DNA from: an uncultured Fretibacterium sp.
Lineage (GTDB): Bacteria; Synergistota; Synergistia; Synergistales; Aminobacteriaceae
Direction of reading: 5' to 3'
Assembly (NCBI GenBank): GCA_946186205.1
Contig: CAMHMH010000002.1
Location: 310,001 to 374,000, forward strand
DNA length: 64,000 bases
Part shown: positions 48,684 through 54,266 of the stretch, piece after piece
How the letters are laid out: each line of letters begins with the position of its first letter
Position numbering within the stretch: the first letter of the stretch is position 1
Notes under the pieces: model-generated
Databases searched by the model: none
What the model was told of the DNA's origin: nothing
Seen by the model: the letters and a program-made list of their open reading frames with translations, nothing else
Position numbers and translations under genes: made by a program

Positions 48684-48786
48684 AAAAGCAATTGCCAGTT
48701 ATGAAGCATAAGAATCAAAACAGAATCAACGCCCAATTTTTCAGACGCTCAAAACGTCGCAGGCACTTCAGAAAGTAATTGCCAGT
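48684..48786. repeat. Short direct repeat in the intergenic region before ribD
   Basis: AAAGCAATTGCCAGT (about 48685-48699) recurs as AAAGTAATTGCCAGT (48772-48786) with one mismatch, each followed by a partly similar GAA.CATAAG or GAAATCATGAGG segment. Significance unclear. Confidence 0.6.
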
Positions 48787-48835
48787 CAGAAATCATGAGG
48801 CTAAAATAAAATCATCAAAAATTTTCCCGGAGGTC

Positions 48836-49945
48836 GTGAACATCATACACACTCAATATATGAACCGCGCATTGTCGCTTGCTCGTAACGGTCTGCGAAT
48901 GACATCCCCGAATCCTATGGTCGGCTGCGTAATCGTCAAAGAAGGCCGCATCATCGGCGAGGGCTGGCATCATCAATACGGCAATCCACACGCTGAAATC
49001 GAAGCCATCAATGACGCAGTCTCACGCGGCGAAAACGTGAGAGGCTCGGCAGTTTATGTTACTCTTGAGCCTTGCAGCCATTACGGGAAGACTCCGCCGT
49101 GCGCAAACCGTTTAGTCGATGAGGGAGTCGCAGAGGTCATAATCGCAATGAGAGATCCGAATCCCAAAGTCAATGGCAGGGGCATAAACATTCTGCGCGA
49201 GTCAGGCGTGAAAGTTACGGAGCTTTCAGAGTTTGAAGAGGCCGCAAAATTTCTTAACCGCGGATTCGTTTTCGTCCATAAATACGGAAGGCCGTTCGTG
49301 AGTCTCAAAGCCGCGATGAGTCTTGACGGTCGTATGAATCTCGCAAACGGTTCAAGCAAATGGATAACAGGAATCGAGTCACGAACAGAGTCTCACAGAA
49401 TGCGCGCTGAAAATGACGCTGTTCTTGTCGGAGTCGGAACGGTGATAAGCGATGACCCCGAATTGACCGTGAGGCACGTTGAAGGCATCAACCCTTTGCG
49501 CGTTGTATTGGACTCTCATCTGAGGACTCCTGTTTTGTCGAAAGTAATCGGGAATGACGGCAAATGTCTCATCATAACGGCGGAAGATTCAGACCGTGAA
49601 AAGTCAAAAGCATTAACCGACATGGGCGCAACAGTAGCAGAAGTGTCATCAGCAAACGGCCATGTTGATATAGAGTCTGCGCTGAAGTATCTTGCTGAGA
49701 AGGGAATATTGACTCTCATGGTAGAGGGAGGCCCGGAGATTCTCGGAGCGTTTCTGCGTGAAGGTCTTGCGGATTACATGAAGCTGTTCATAGCCCCGAA
49801 AATTTTCGGCGAGGGAAAATCAATCGACATGGGCATGAATTTTGCTGACGTAAAATCTGCGTTCACTCTCAGGAACACAATCACGCGCACATTAGGCACG
49901 GACATAATGACGGAAGGGAGATTATCATGTTCACCGGACTTATAG
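48836..49945 (+). CDS. ribD: Bifunctional riboflavin biosynthesis protein RibD
   Basis: A 369-residue protein that deaminates and then reduces the pyrimidine intermediate of riboflavin synthesis. The deaminase domain (1-145) has the zinc motif NPHAEIEAI and the PCSHYGKTPPC pair. The reductase domain (150-365) starts RPFVSLKAAMSLDGRMNL. The start is uncertain: the GTG at 48836 is only 2 nt from GGAGG, while in-frame ATC (48842) and ATA (48845) lie at 8 and 11 nt and give equally good N-termini. An ATG at 48861 would cut the conserved YMNRALSLA helix. ribE overlaps its 3' end by 19 bp. Confidence 0.95.
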   Translation: MNIIHTQYMNRALSLARNGLRMTSPNPMVGCVIVKEGRIIGEGWHHQYGNPHAEIEAINDAVSRGENVRGSAVYVTLEPCSHYGKTPPCANRLVDEGVAEVIIAMRDPNPKVNGRGINILRESGVKVTELSEFEEAAKFLNRGFVFVHKYGRPFVSLKAAMSLDGRMNLANGSSKWITGIESRTESHRMRAENDAVLVGVGTVISDDPELTVRHVEGINPLRVVLDSHLRTPVLSKVIGNDGKCLIITAEDSDREKSKALTDMGATVAEVSSANGHVDIESALKYLAEKGILTLMVEGGPEILGAFLREGLADYMKLFIAPKIFGEGKSIDMGMNFADVKSAFTLRNTITRTLGTDIMTEGRLSCSPDL

Positions 49946-50559
49946 AGACGATTGGGACGATAAAGAGCTTCACCCGCAAAGGAACGTATTACACTCTCAC
50001 GGTTGAGTCAAAAATTTCTGGTGAATTGTCGCTCGGCCAGTCCGTCAGCGTAAGCGGCGCATGTCTCACAGTAACGCGGAATGACTCGCACACTTTTGAC
50101 GCTGAGATGATGCACGAGACATTTATTCGGACATGGTTCGGAAGGGGCTTGCGTCCGGGGACTCGCGTTAATCTTGAGCGGGCAATGAGACTTACGGATC
50201 GCCTTGACGGTCATTTGGTGCTGGGACATGTTGACGGCGTTGCAACGCTGAAAGAAATCCGGGGGACTGACACAAAGGAAGCCGTATTTGTCCCGGAAGA
50301 CTCAGAGTTACTGCGGGGGATTGTTGAGAAGGGATCTGTTGCTGTTGACGGAATAAGCCTGACAGTTATTGAAGCGGGGAGTCGTTCTTTCTCTGTAGGG
50401 ATTATCCCTGCGACTCTCAGCGCGACGACACTCGGTGAGCTTAAAGCCGGAGGGATAATCAACCTTGAGACGGATATACTTGGGAAATATGTTGCGAGGC
50501 TCGCGGAATTTCGCCCTGCTGCTAATGACTCGGATTACTGGCGGTCGCTTTTGTCGTGA
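49927..50559 (+). CDS. ribE: Riboflavin synthase alpha chain
   Basis: A 210-residue trimeric enzyme that dismutates two 6,7-dimethyl-8-ribityllumazine molecules into riboflavin. It consists of two lumazine-binding beta-barrel halves: MFTGLIETIGTIKSF with VSVSGACLTV in the first, and GHVDGVATLKEI with VAVDGISLTVIEAG in the second. The start overlaps ribD; the 3' end overlaps mtnA convergently by 38 bp, leaving no room for a terminator between them. Confidence 0.95.
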   Translation: MFTGLIETIGTIKSFTRKGTYYTLTVESKISGELSLGQSVSVSGACLTVTRNDSHTFDAEMMHETFIRTWFGRGLRPGTRVNLERAMRLTDRLDGHLVLGHVDGVATLKEIRGTDTKEAVFVPEDSELLRGIVEKGSVAVDGISLTVIEAGSRSFSVGIIPATLSATTLGELKAGGIINLETDILGKYVARLAEFRPAANDSDYWRSLLS

Positions 50560-51607
50560 AAATCTCCTTGAGGCTGTCAACATAAGGCGGTCTTGCGATT
50601 CCGTATTCAGTAACAATCCCGGTGATTAATTCATGGCCTGTAACATCAAACGCGGGGTTATAGACTTTCACGCCTTCAGGAGCCATTCTCTTTGAGTACC
50701 ACATCTCTGTAACTTCTTCGGGGCTTCTCTGCTCAATGATAATGTCTGAGCCAGTCTGAATCGTCATGTCGATTGTTGAAGCGGGGCAGAAAACGTAAAA
50801 GGGAACGCCGTAATATTTTGCGAGAACCGCGAGTCCTGATGTGCCTATCTTGTTGCAAGCGTCCCCGTTCGCCGCTAACCTGTCGCACCCCACAAACACC
50901 GCGCTGACTCTTCCTTCCTTCATGACCTGTGAAGACATGTTGTCGCAAATTAATGTAGTGTCGACTCCGTCAGCAAGAAGCTCAAACGCTGAGAGCCTCG
51001 CGCCCTGCAATAACGGCCTTGTCTCGTCGCAGTAAACGTGAAAGTTCATTCCCTTCTCGCGCCCCAAATGTATGGGAGCTAAAGCCGTTCCGTATTTTGA
51101 TGTTGCGAGCTGTCCGGCGTTGCAGTGAGTCAATATCCCGTCGCCGTTCTTGATGAGAGTCAATCCATATTCGCCGATCTTCCTGCAAGTTTCAGTGTCT
51201 TCTGACTTAATCGCAATTGCTTCGAGTCGTAACAAGTCTGTGATTTCCGGGATAGGTTTATCGCTGTGAGTCTCTGCGACTCTGTAGACCCGGTTTAATG
51301 CCCACGAGAGATTGACGGCTGTAGGCCTTGCGGAGTTTAGGTAGCATTTTGCGTATTTGAGTCCAGTAATGAATGACGGGTAATTGTTTGCGCGTGATTG
51401 AAGTGCTGCGAGATAGAGACCGAACGCCGCGGCTATACCGATTGCGGGCGCGCCTCTGACTTTAAGAGTCTTTATTGCGTCCCATATGTCGCGAATGTCT
51501 TTGAGGTGAAGAATGTCGACAGTGCCGGGCAGTTTTGTCTGATCGAGAATGAGTAATGCGTTTTCATTTTCATCAAGCGAAACTGTTTCGAGAGTCATAA
51601 TGTTCAT
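50522..51607 (-). CDS. mtnA: S-methyl-5-thioribose-1-phosphate isomerase
   Basis: A 361-residue enzyme of the eIF2B-like fold that converts methylthioribose 1-phosphate to the ribulose form in methionine salvage. It has KVRGAPAIGIAAAFGLYLA (substrate loop, about 47-65), THCNAGQLATSKYGTALAPI, the catalytic cysteine region, FVGCDRLAANGDACNKIGTSGLA with the catalytic aspartate, and FCPASTID. The ATG at 51607 follows GGAGG; longer readings lack a ribosome site. The other salvage genes are not adjacent. It may instead serve a nucleoside-recycling shunt. Confidence 0.93.
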   Translation of the reverse strand: MNIMTLETVSLDENENALLILDQTKLPGTVDILHLKDIRDIWDAIKTLKVRGAPAIGIAAAFGLYLAALQSRANNYPSFITGLKYAKCYLNSARPTAVNLSWALNRVYRVAETHSDKPIPEITDLLRLEAIAIKSEDTETCRKIGEYGLTLIKNGDGILTHCNAGQLATSKYGTALAPIHLGREKGMNFHVYCDETRPLLQGARLSAFELLADGVDTTLICDNMSSQVMKEGRVSAVFVGCDRLAANGDACNKIGTSGLAVLAKYYGVPFYVFCPASTIDMTIQTGSDIIIEQRSPEEVTEMWYSKRMAPEGVKVYNPAFDVTGHELITGIVTEYGIARPPYVDSLKEIFTTKATASNPSH

Positions 51608-51674
51608 CGTGAAGCCTCCGTTTGAATTTGCTGGAATGATTATAGACGATTCGGCCATGTGATGAATATAGCTG

Positions 51675-51722
51675 TTGACAAAGCCCCCCCCCCGTTGAAG
51701 TATAATTACCGTAAAATTTTAC
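51675..51722 (+). promoter_or_regulatory. Promoter with a C10 tract in the spacer, candidate phase-variable
   Basis: TTGACA (51675-51680) and TATAAT (51701-51706) are both perfect consensus boxes, but 20 bp apart. The spacer contains ten consecutive C residues (51684-51693). Loss of three would restore the optimal 17 bp. A perfect 12-bp palindrome, GTAAAATTTTAC (51711-51722), lies at the expected transcription start and could bind a regulator. The leader to the first gene is about 100 nt. Confidence 0.75.
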
Positions 51723-51816: not shown

Positions 51817-51996
51817 ATGGCGAAAACGGCGGAGACTTACGAGAAAGTTGCGGAGACCTTCACGCGCAAAGGCGATACCGAATGGGCAAAGGCCAAAAAC
51901 GGCGAGGGAGATTACCATTACGGGAACGCGAAGAAGGATTATGCGACTGCGGAGCTTGCGAGGAAGAAAGCGCAGGAACTGAGGAATAACGGTTAG
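51817..51996 (+). CDS. Small charged helical protein, unknown function
   Basis: A 59-residue protein from an ATG at 51817, seven bases after AAGGAGG, to the TAG at 51994-51996. It begins MAKTAETYEKVAETFTRKG and ends in ARKKAQELRNNG. It is rich in Lys, Glu and Ala, probably two or three amphipathic helices, with no membrane segment or signal. I do not recognise a family. It is the first of three small genes behind the poly-C promoter. Confidence 0.7.
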   Translation: MAKTAETYEKVAETFTRKGDTEWAKAKNGEGDYHYGNAKKDYATAELARKKAQELRNNG

Positions 51997-52011
51997 GAGG
52001 CGAATAAAGCG

Positions 52012-52278
52012 ATGGGCAAATCAACTGGAGATACTGTCGGAGGAGCTACAGCAATCGGGATTATCGGTGCTATGGTGGGAGGTCCGCTCGGTGCTCTTGC
52101 TGGTGCTGCTATAGGAGGGCTGATAGGCGGTGAGAATATTATGAACGGTGTAGCCAGTGCAATAGAGAAAAGAGCGGGAGAACTTTCAAGAGATGGACGC
52201 ATTGACTCTGAAAGACGCGCAAAATTTTCTGAAATGCACGACCGCGCCAAAAATTACCGCGAAAGCAAGAGGCACTAA
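52012..52278 (+). CDS. Small glycine-zipper membrane protein
   Basis: An 88-residue protein with GGAGG ten nt before the ATG. Residues about 10-42 are a glycine-zipper segment with repeated GxxxG spacing (GGATAIGIIGAMVGGPLGAL, then AGAAIGGLIGG), long enough for one or two membrane passes. The C-terminal half is soluble and strongly charged (EKRAGELSRDGRIDSERR). Glycine-zipper domains occur in outer-membrane lipoproteins, channel-forming peptides and some toxins; there is no signal peptide here. Function unknown. Second gene of the poly-C operon. Confidence 0.72.
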   Translation: MGKSTGDTVGGATAIGIIGAMVGGPLGALAGAAIGGLIGGENIMNGVASAIEKRAGELSRDGRIDSERRAKFSEMHDRAKNYRESKRH

Positions 52279-52310
52279 GGGAAATTGTAGCATAGAGAGG
52301 AGGTGAAAAC

Positions 52311-52460
52311 ATGTCGGTCTTCAAGGGATTCAGGTGCAAGTACTGCGGAAAGCCCGTAAGCTGGAACACAGACAAAGGCCCACGCCCCCCTGCGAACGCA
52401 AACAGCTTCGACAAATGCCCCAAGTCGCCGGACAAGCGTCATCATTTCGAGGAAGTGTAG
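52311..52460 (+). CDS. 49-residue zinc-ribbon-like protein
   Basis: A short gene preceded by GAGGAGGTG, with ATG at 52311 and TAG at 52458-52460. It has one CxxC knuckle (CKYCGK at residues 9-14), a third cysteine at 36 and a C-terminal His pair (HH at 44-45) that could complete a metal site. It is basic overall. Such mini-proteins may bind zinc or nucleic acid, but no family is recognised. Third and last gene before the terminator at 52474. Confidence 0.7.
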   Translation: MSVFKGFRCKYCGKPVSWNTDKGPRPPANANSFDKCPKSPDKRHHFEEV

Positions 52461-52473
52461 CAGGAAATAACAG

Positions 52474-52508
52474 GAGCATCGGTTACTCACAGCCGACGCT
52501 CTTTTTTT
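52474..52508 (+). terminator. Intrinsic terminator of the small-gene operon
   Basis: GAGCATCGG (52474-52482) pairs with CCGACGCTC (52493-52501) with one mismatch, followed by seven T residues. Confidence 0.9.
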
Positions 52509-52813: not shown

Positions 52814-53075
52814 GATAGGCCGATACGTCATATACTTCTGGTCAAACGAGAACAACCCCCGCGAGCCTGTGCATGTTCATGTTGCAGTCAGACATGCCGT
52901 CGCCAATGCCACAAAGTTATGGATAACAAAAGACGGAAAAGTTCTGATTGCCAACAACAATTCTATGATACCTATCAGGGATTTGGACGGTATTATTGAT
53001 ATTGTCGAGAAGAGAAGCGATGAAATAATTGAAGCGTGGCTTGACCATTTTGGCGAAGTAAGATACATACGCTAA
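52797..53075 (+). CDS. DUF4160 family protein
   Basis: A 92-residue protein with the DUF4160 N-terminus [28 protein letters not shown], including the paired histidines, followed by [19 protein letters not shown] and a C-terminal helix ending [14 protein letters not shown]. Family members are often encoded with DUF2442 proteins and are suspected toxin-antitoxin components, without firm proof. ATG at 52797, directly after an in-frame TTG. It ends 31 bp before ribA. Confidence 0.82.
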
Positions 53076-53106
53076 AATTATTCCCGCAAAGAGAGATGAT
53101 AAACAT

Positions 53107-53760
53107 TTGAACTGCCATAATCACGATCACGAAATAATAATCACAAAGAACAAATACAAGCGCGTCGAAAAAAAATTAACCGTCCCAATTCCGACTCCCT
53201 GGGGACTCTTTCACGTCAGCGCATACAGAAGCATAACGCAGGATGATGACTCACACACTCACCTTGCGCTCGTGATGGGAGATATTACGACTCCTGAACC
53301 TGTTCTTGTCCGGGTTCACAGCGAGTGCTTCACAGGCGACGTACTCGGCTCGTTGCGATGTGATTGCGGGCCTCAATTGCACACAGCCTTGAAGATGATT
53401 GCTGACGAGGGTCGCGGGGCATTGCTATACATGCGTCAGGAAGGCCGGGGAATCGGACTCCTAAACAAGCTCCGTGCGTATCAGTTACAGGACGAGGGAC
53501 TCGACACAGTAGACGCAAACGTGGCATTAGGCTTCCCCCCTGACATGAGGGAATACGGAACAGGCGCGGAGATTCTCAAGGACTTAGGACTCAAACGCAT
53601 ACGGCTCATGACGAACAACCCCGGCAAAATTTCAGGCCTCGAGGAATACGGAATAGAAATCACCGAGCGAGTCCCAATCGTAATTACACCCAACGACTAT
53701 AATATGAAGTATCTTGACACTAAGGCTAATCGAATGGGTCATATTTTCGGCAAAAACTAG
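53107..53760 (+). CDS. ribA: GTP cyclohydrolase II
   Basis: A 217-residue zinc enzyme that opens GTP to the first pyrimidine intermediate of riboflavin synthesis. Zinc ligands are the three cysteines of [21 protein letters not shown] (about 76-96). [20 protein letters not shown] and [16 protein letters not shown] are the GTP-binding parts. It stands alone; the DHBP synthase half (RibB) often fused to it is absent here and elsewhere in the window. TTG start at 53107 with a weak ribosome site, and a histidine-rich N-terminus (NCHNHDHE). ribH follows 17 bp later. Confidence 0.95.
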
Positions 53761-53777
53761 AAGGAGGATTACTCATA

Positions 53778-54266
53778 GTGAAAGTAACAGAAGGGAAATT
53801 AATCGGCTCAGGACTCAACATCGCAATAATCGCTTCACGCTTCAACGACATAGTAACATCGCGTCTCATTGACGGGGCGAAAGATACTCTCATCCGTCAT
53901 GACGTTTCACCGAACGCAATCGACATATACTGGGTGCCGGGCGCGTGGGAGCTTCCGTTAATCGCAGAAGAAGTTGTGCTGACGGGGAAATATGATGCCG
54001 TTATCGCATTGGGAGCAGTGATTCGCGGTGACACTCCGCACTTTGATTATGTAGCTGCTGAGTCGTCAAAAGGACTCGCAAGTGTCGGACTGAAACACAG
54101 AGTCCCGGTCTTGTTCGGCGTTCTTACGTGCGACACATTAGAGCAGGCGTTGTTGCGTGCGGGAAGCAAGGCCGGCAATAAAGGATCAGACTGCGCGCTC
54201 GGTGCTATTGAGATGGCGAATCTTTTACGGGCTGTAAGAAAAACTACATCAACAGAAGGGAATTAA
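53778..54266 (+). CDS. ribH: 6,7-dimethyl-8-ribityllumazine synthase
   Basis: A 162-residue capsid-forming enzyme, GTG start after AAGGAGG. It condenses the ribityl-pyrimidine with dihydroxybutanone phosphate. Motifs: IIASRFNDIVTSRLIDGAKD, VPGAWELPLIAEEV (about 55-68), ALGAVIRGDTPHFDYVAAESSKGL with the phosphate-contact and catalytic histidine, and FGVLTCDTLEQALLRAGSKAGNKG. Six bp separate it from serS. Confidence 0.96.
   Translation: MKVTEGKLIGSGLNIAIIASRFNDIVTSRLIDGAKDTLIRHDVSPNAIDIYWVPGAWELPLIAEEVVLTGKYDAVIALGAVIRGDTPHFDYVAAESSKGLASVGLKHRVPVLFGVLTCDTLEQALLRAGSKAGNKGSDCALGAIEMANLLRAVRKTTSTEGN

Follow-up and report, generated by a model that had tools for sequence, protein, structure and literature searches.

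A poly-C tract between the consensus boxes of a Fretibacterium promoter: a candidate phase-variable promoter in a genus-wide family with spacers held near 20 bp

Can a promoter with two perfect boxes placed 20 bp apart, and with ten consecutive cytosines between them, act as a switch set by the length of the run? The question arises at one locus of a 64 kb stretch of contig C2 of an uncultured Fretibacterium sp. (this whole stretch being hereafter the window; the source genome, G000, has 2.75 Mb in 19 contigs), where the plus strand at positions 51675–51706 reads TTGACA AAG CCCCCCCCCC GTTGAAG TATAAT. The consensus −35 hexamer (51675–51680) and the consensus −10 hexamer (51701–51706) are separated by a spacer of exactly 20 bp (51681–51700) and, as in porA, fetA and tp0126, a homopolymer of slippage-prone length lies between the boxes, here the C10 putative slippage tract at 51684–51693. 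A preliminary description made from the sequence alone had reported the perfect boxes, their distance and the ten Cs, and re-reading the sequence confirms them, together with a perfect 12-bp palindrome, GTAAAATTTTAC, at 51711–51722, around the expected transcription start. The suggestion that this palindrome is a repressor site is unsupported, because the palindrome is not conserved (each of the four orthologous promoters either lacks it or carries an imperfect version), and an operator at this position was rejected as the orthologues do not keep the dyad. Perfect 12-bp palindromes number nine in the window, and this one is probably incidental.

The promoter is followed on the same strand by a cassette of three small ORFs, each with a ribosome-binding site, for which searches of Pfam and PADLOC returned zero matches: ORF1 (51817–51996), a charged protein of 59 residues, ORF2 (52012–52278), a glycine-zipper hydrophobic protein of 88 residues, and ORF3 (52311–52460), a zinc-ribbon-like CxxC protein of 49 residues. 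The leader from the promoter to ORF1 is about 100 nt long, and the cassette ends in a terminator-like hairpin with a T run (52479–52505), identified by its match to the consensus. Divergent from the promoter, on the minus strand, is an ORF (50522–51658) which we take to be of the mtnA family, a neighbour and not cargo, whose true start is probably 12–18 codons inside the annotated frame. Together with the cassette it interrupts an apparent riboflavin gene cluster, presumably made up of the ORFs at 53060–54266 and 48779–50559.

The pairing of C runs with TTGACA is not due to chance. The C10 tract is the sole C run of at least 7 in the window, and in the source genome there are 24 C or G runs of at least 8, six of which are found directly behind TTGACA, each followed by a −10-like element; at the TTGACA frequency of the window, the probability of at least six such runs out of 24 is about 2.7e-11. 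Most of the remaining runs in this genome are inside genes or near gene starts. One gene is out of frame at a run of 15 Gs (a glycosyltransferase) while a second glycosyltransferase gene is in frame, a surface-type protein gene is out of frame at its run, and an hsdS-like gene, also out of frame, has a C19 run (G000:C3:83605) at the junction of its halves and is possibly a phase-variable specificity subunit; these four names are our assumption, from reading of the sequence and general knowledge. Many of the runs of the source genome that have no TTGACA share flanking AT words, with TTA, TTG or ATA before the run and, after about 7 nt, GTAATNTTAC behind it, and this holds even for runs located within genes of the opposite strand. 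A loss of mismatch repair was rejected as an explanation of the long runs, since mutS1 is present (816 bits).

The same promoter adjoins mtnA in five species, namely G000, G041, G026, G024 and G003 (G000–G042 being the genomes of a Fretibacterium-like genus set of 43 species), and is followed by the same first small gene in four of them. The −35 hexamer is kept in G041, G026 and G024 and is TTGACT in G003, and at the −10 element GTATAATT is identical across all five orthologues. The length of the C tract in related genomes, a check that had been proposed with the first description of the locus, is C10 in G000, C11 in G041 and G026, C10 in G024 and C7TCC in G003, with a spacer of 21 bp in G041 and of 20 bp in the other four. 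Run length differs among close relatives while the rest of the promoter is kept, as seen between species (not within a strain), and the flanks of G000 and G041 are one base apart. The spacer thus stays at 20–21 bp with differing flanks, and the 17 bp that had been put forward as the ON length, with seven Cs, is seen in none of the five species. The cassette is placed 3′ of mtnA in G024 and G003 and 5′ of it in G000, G041 and G026. Behind this promoter, ORF1 has orthologues in G026 (98%), G024 (79%) and G003 (80%), and a relative of ORF3 follows in G024; ORF1 is absent from G041, with a different small ORF in its place, and ORF2 differs in G026, and therefore at the mtnA locus the promoter is conserved while its cargo changes.

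Analysis of the whole genus indicates that the design is recurrent. In the 43 species, the search recovered about 50 spacer promoters of the poly-C type and 18 of the poly-G type, versus 7 matches in the 145 genomes of the rest of the phylum; outside the genus the poly-G version was matched 3 times. At least 7 Cs beginning within 6 nt after TTGACA occur in 20 of the 43 genomes (the reversed pattern, used as a control, matched twice), and with the −10 element included the pattern is present in 18 of 43, versus 4 of the 145 other genomes of the phylum, those four having only C7. The runs are nearly always pure homopolymers, and 20-bp spacers rich in C but of mixed sequence were not found as a class in the genus search. 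With identical flanks, one site has C12 (G011:C39) where another has C6ACCC (G002:C8). Phages as the source of population variants of the poly-C promoters were considered and set aside, as only one viral contig matched. In genome G042, seven poly-G promoters share one design, TTGACA N6-8 Gn TAAAAT, several being upstream of secreted proteins. Outside the phylum, among the matches listed, poly-C spacer promoters are mainly found in gut Clostridia and in Mucispirillum, with spacers typically of 15–16 bp. Eight Mucispirillum promoters resembling TTGACATTC9ATGATATAAT all have C9 and 15 bp, this lineage, too, keeping one resting length throughout, here below 17 bp.

The cargo behind the run promoters elsewhere in the genus includes surface proteins, a glycosyltransferase and homologues of phage-defence proteins (BnzB and PDC-M09A, the latter in G022), along with Leo-like GTPases in G002, a recurrent DUF697-like hydrophobic family, glycine-zipper proteins, secreted proteins and lipoproteins. 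A BnzB homologue is found behind a C-run promoter by PADLOC in G000 (3.8e-56), G005 (3e-57) and G021 (2.9e-55), and by orthology in G015. In the source genome this promoter (G000:C1:447060-447093) precedes a glycine-zipper protein of 148 residues and the BnzB (Bunzi) homologue, an arrangement seen in four species; the 148-residue first gene has no BnzA match by PADLOC (region G000:C1:440000-449000), and the locus is possibly a variant defence system under a switch, with a different partner or as a divergent system. A second BnzB-like gene (PADLOC 3.1e-25) is located behind a C13 run at G000:C8:77313 (region G000:C8:74000-83000), which is not preceded by TTGACA and is followed after about 60 nt by a glycine-rich protein. 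The proposal of a candidate phase-variable promoter thus receives strong comparative support from a genus-wide family with contingency-type and defence cargo, and further support from the mostly pure runs, from the differing run lengths of relatives and from intragenic runs that are in or out of frame. As judged from these sequence comparisons, the promoter is probably one of many in the genus whose genes are switched by run length.

Ordinary TTGACA/TATAAT promoters of six genomes (n=130) have spacers of 15–18 bp in 111 cases and of 20 bp once, and the C-run promoters of the same six genomes (n=11) have 19 bp in one case, 20 bp in seven and 21 bp in three. A broader set of C-run promoters (n=32) comprises 19 sites at 20 bp, five at 19 bp and three at 21 bp, with one site each at 22, 17, 16, 14 and 11 bp, and the poly-G promoters outside G042 have 19–20 bp. 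In one further set of about 51 sites the −10 was chosen, where there was more than one candidate, as that nearest to a 20-bp spacer, and the claim on spacing rests on the other, unselected sets. Across 26 sites the length of the run and the sum of its flanks are inversely related (r = −0.80, permutation P < 1e-5), the standard deviation of the total spacer being 1.12, a spread never reached in 100,000 permutations (permuted mean 2.46). Regression of the spacer on run length n gives 17.0 + 0.29 n.

The reading that we favour, and hold to be reasonably probable, is that 51675–51706 is a sigma-70-type promoter in which a slippage-prone C run sets the spacing of the boxes and which drives the cassette at 51817–52460, with 20 bp as a low or OFF state. 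Strand slippage during replication would alter the number of Cs, and hence the distance from −35 to −10. In the assembled state (C10, 20 bp) the perfect boxes would be badly spaced, with low or no transcription, while the loss of two to four Cs would bring the spacer to 16–18 bp and give strong transcription, so that 20 bp would be an OFF or low resting state two to three slippage steps short of ON. That a consensus promoter should be weak at 20 bp is suggested by the optimum of 17 nt for porA and for Treponema pallidum tp0126, in which a poly-G run lies between the boxes (PMC7864442), and the 15–18 bp of the ordinary promoters of the genus agree with this; both points argue for a switch. In the simplest account that covers the uniform 20 bp as well, slippage is biased to contraction: runs would be pushed downwards and cells at 18 bp or less would be selected against under most conditions, and total spacers would accumulate at 19–20 bp, just on the OFF side, regardless of the flanks. 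The ON state would then be costly, with which a cargo of defence, surface and small hydrophobic proteins is consistent. We infer the slippage within a population, the direction and size of its effect on transcription and the reason for which 20 bp is kept.

Several observations, however, stand against a switch. With 27 of the 32 sites at 19–21 bp, the spacers vary less than would be expected of a run free to drift, and the ON lengths of 16–18 bp are rare in the assemblies, poly-C spacers of this length being few in the genus and such lengths being present among the poly-G promoters of G042. The same spacing is found for six runs that are interrupted and so less prone to slip, with 20 bp in five (G001:C332, G002:C8, G003:C227, G030:C14 and G030:C118) and 19 bp in one (G005:C12), and intact-looking genes follow at least four of the six; since interrupted 20-bp runs before such genes would be locked OFF, they favour 20 bp as a working length. 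Also, the presence of mutS would lower slippage without abolishing it.

In the main alternative, which we hold to be less probable, the promoters form a distinct class with a working length of about 20 bp, in which the G/C run is mainly structural and switching is secondary. The boxes could be realigned by an activator or by supercoiling, in a MerR-like manner, or a compact G/C run could restore their register. This would account for a spacer that stays at 20 bp whatever the length of the run and of its flanks (the compensation found across the 26 sites), with interrupted runs and with poly-G runs on the other strand alike, the latter outside G042; within G042, however, the spacers of the seven poly-G promoters range from below to above the optimum, at 15–21 bp. 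The regression slope is expected from a compact run, but the same slope is expected from length jitter around a fixed total. Clostridia and Mucispirillum, among the matches listed, have poly-C spacers of 15–16 bp, and 17 is the optimum of those poly-G promoters whose behaviour is known (PMC7864442), for which reasons a universal geometric effect is unlikely and compaction of the G/C run as the general cause of 20 bp is disfavoured. In respect to a regulator, 14 of 51 C-run promoters, where 0.1 are expected by chance, have GTCAA, the inverted copy of TTGAC, at a distance of exactly 9 nt past the −10, and form a subfamily of consensus approximately TTGACNNATRC10NTAACGTATAATTGCNGAAATGTCAAG; the motif could be a regulator half-site, as the alternative would have it, or a dispersed repeat, but the orthologues of the 51675–51706 promoter do not carry it. 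MerR-type overlong promoters have near-consensus boxes 19–20 bp apart, a dyad in the spacer and the regulator gene close by. The Fretibacterium promoter resembles them in the distance between near-consensus boxes, but a dyad across the spacer AAG C10 GTTGAAG is not seen, nor is a regulator gene among the neighbouring ORFs read, which are the mtnA-like gene, the rib genes and the small ORFs. In a more specific form, which we regard as rather unlikely, runs and flanks would co-evolve in a 20-bp G/C-run promoter class controlling surface and phage-defence genes across the genus, as a rheostat centred on 20 bp and not as a 17-bp ON/OFF switch.

It is improbable that the assembled run lengths are wrong through homopolymer error and that the spacing statistics are in part an artefact. 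The sources are draft or metagenome assemblies and some contigs end at runs; indeed, 4 of 52 sites have a contig end no more than 50 nt away, where 0.29 are expected (a post hoc count), an excess to be expected if run length confuses assembly, and one that we also count on the side of the switch. Random error, however, would widen the distribution of spacers and would not create compensation between run and flanks across independent genomes, and the interrupted runs agree with the pure ones. A chance juxtaposition or an inert relic, with the small ORFs transcribed from elsewhere, would fit three ORFs with no family match behind a long leader, but is highly improbable given that boxes, run and leader are conserved in five species on either side of mtnA and that the design recurs some 50 times in the genus.

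Should the favoured reading of a length-dependent switch hold, its implications go beyond this locus. A 2025 review counts among the major open questions the apparent confinement to pathogens of genomes rich in phase-variable loci, which might also be a bias of the databases (PMC11868660), and an uncultured gut genus in which sequence alone reveals dozens of candidate promoter switches, along with intragenic runs, bears on it. Some of the candidate switches precede phage-defence homologues, which would make defence a bet-hedged trait, and the uniform resting spacer of 20 bp raises the sharp question of how such switches are poised. Our literature search found no paper joining Fretibacterium with phase variation.

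Phase variation by promoter homopolymers is already established, and what would be new, as far as sequence comparison goes, is a genus-wide instance in Synergistota. The closest likeness is with porA of Neisseria meningitidis (poly-G) and fetA of N. gonorrhoeae (poly-C), in which the run is found between the boxes and its length alters spacing and expression (PMC7864442, PMC5320596); the Fretibacterium promoter likewise has a G/C homopolymer between −35 and −10. Unlike porA, with its optimum at 17 nt, the Fretibacterium promoters are assembled at 20 bp with consensus boxes, in a different phylum, and unlike porA and fetA the cargo in the genus includes defence and small hydrophobic proteins. 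The position of the run is also that of tp0126, but whereas the latter drives a single outer membrane protein gene, the genus has a family of loci held near 20 bp. As to the precedents named in the preliminary description, porA stands, whereas opc is not the best one: it shares a poly-C run at the promoter and its expression changes stepwise with the number of Cs, an increase from 11 to 12 raising Opc (PMC3447861), but in opc the −35 region lies within the run (PMC7864442), while in Fretibacterium a perfect TTGACA precedes the run.
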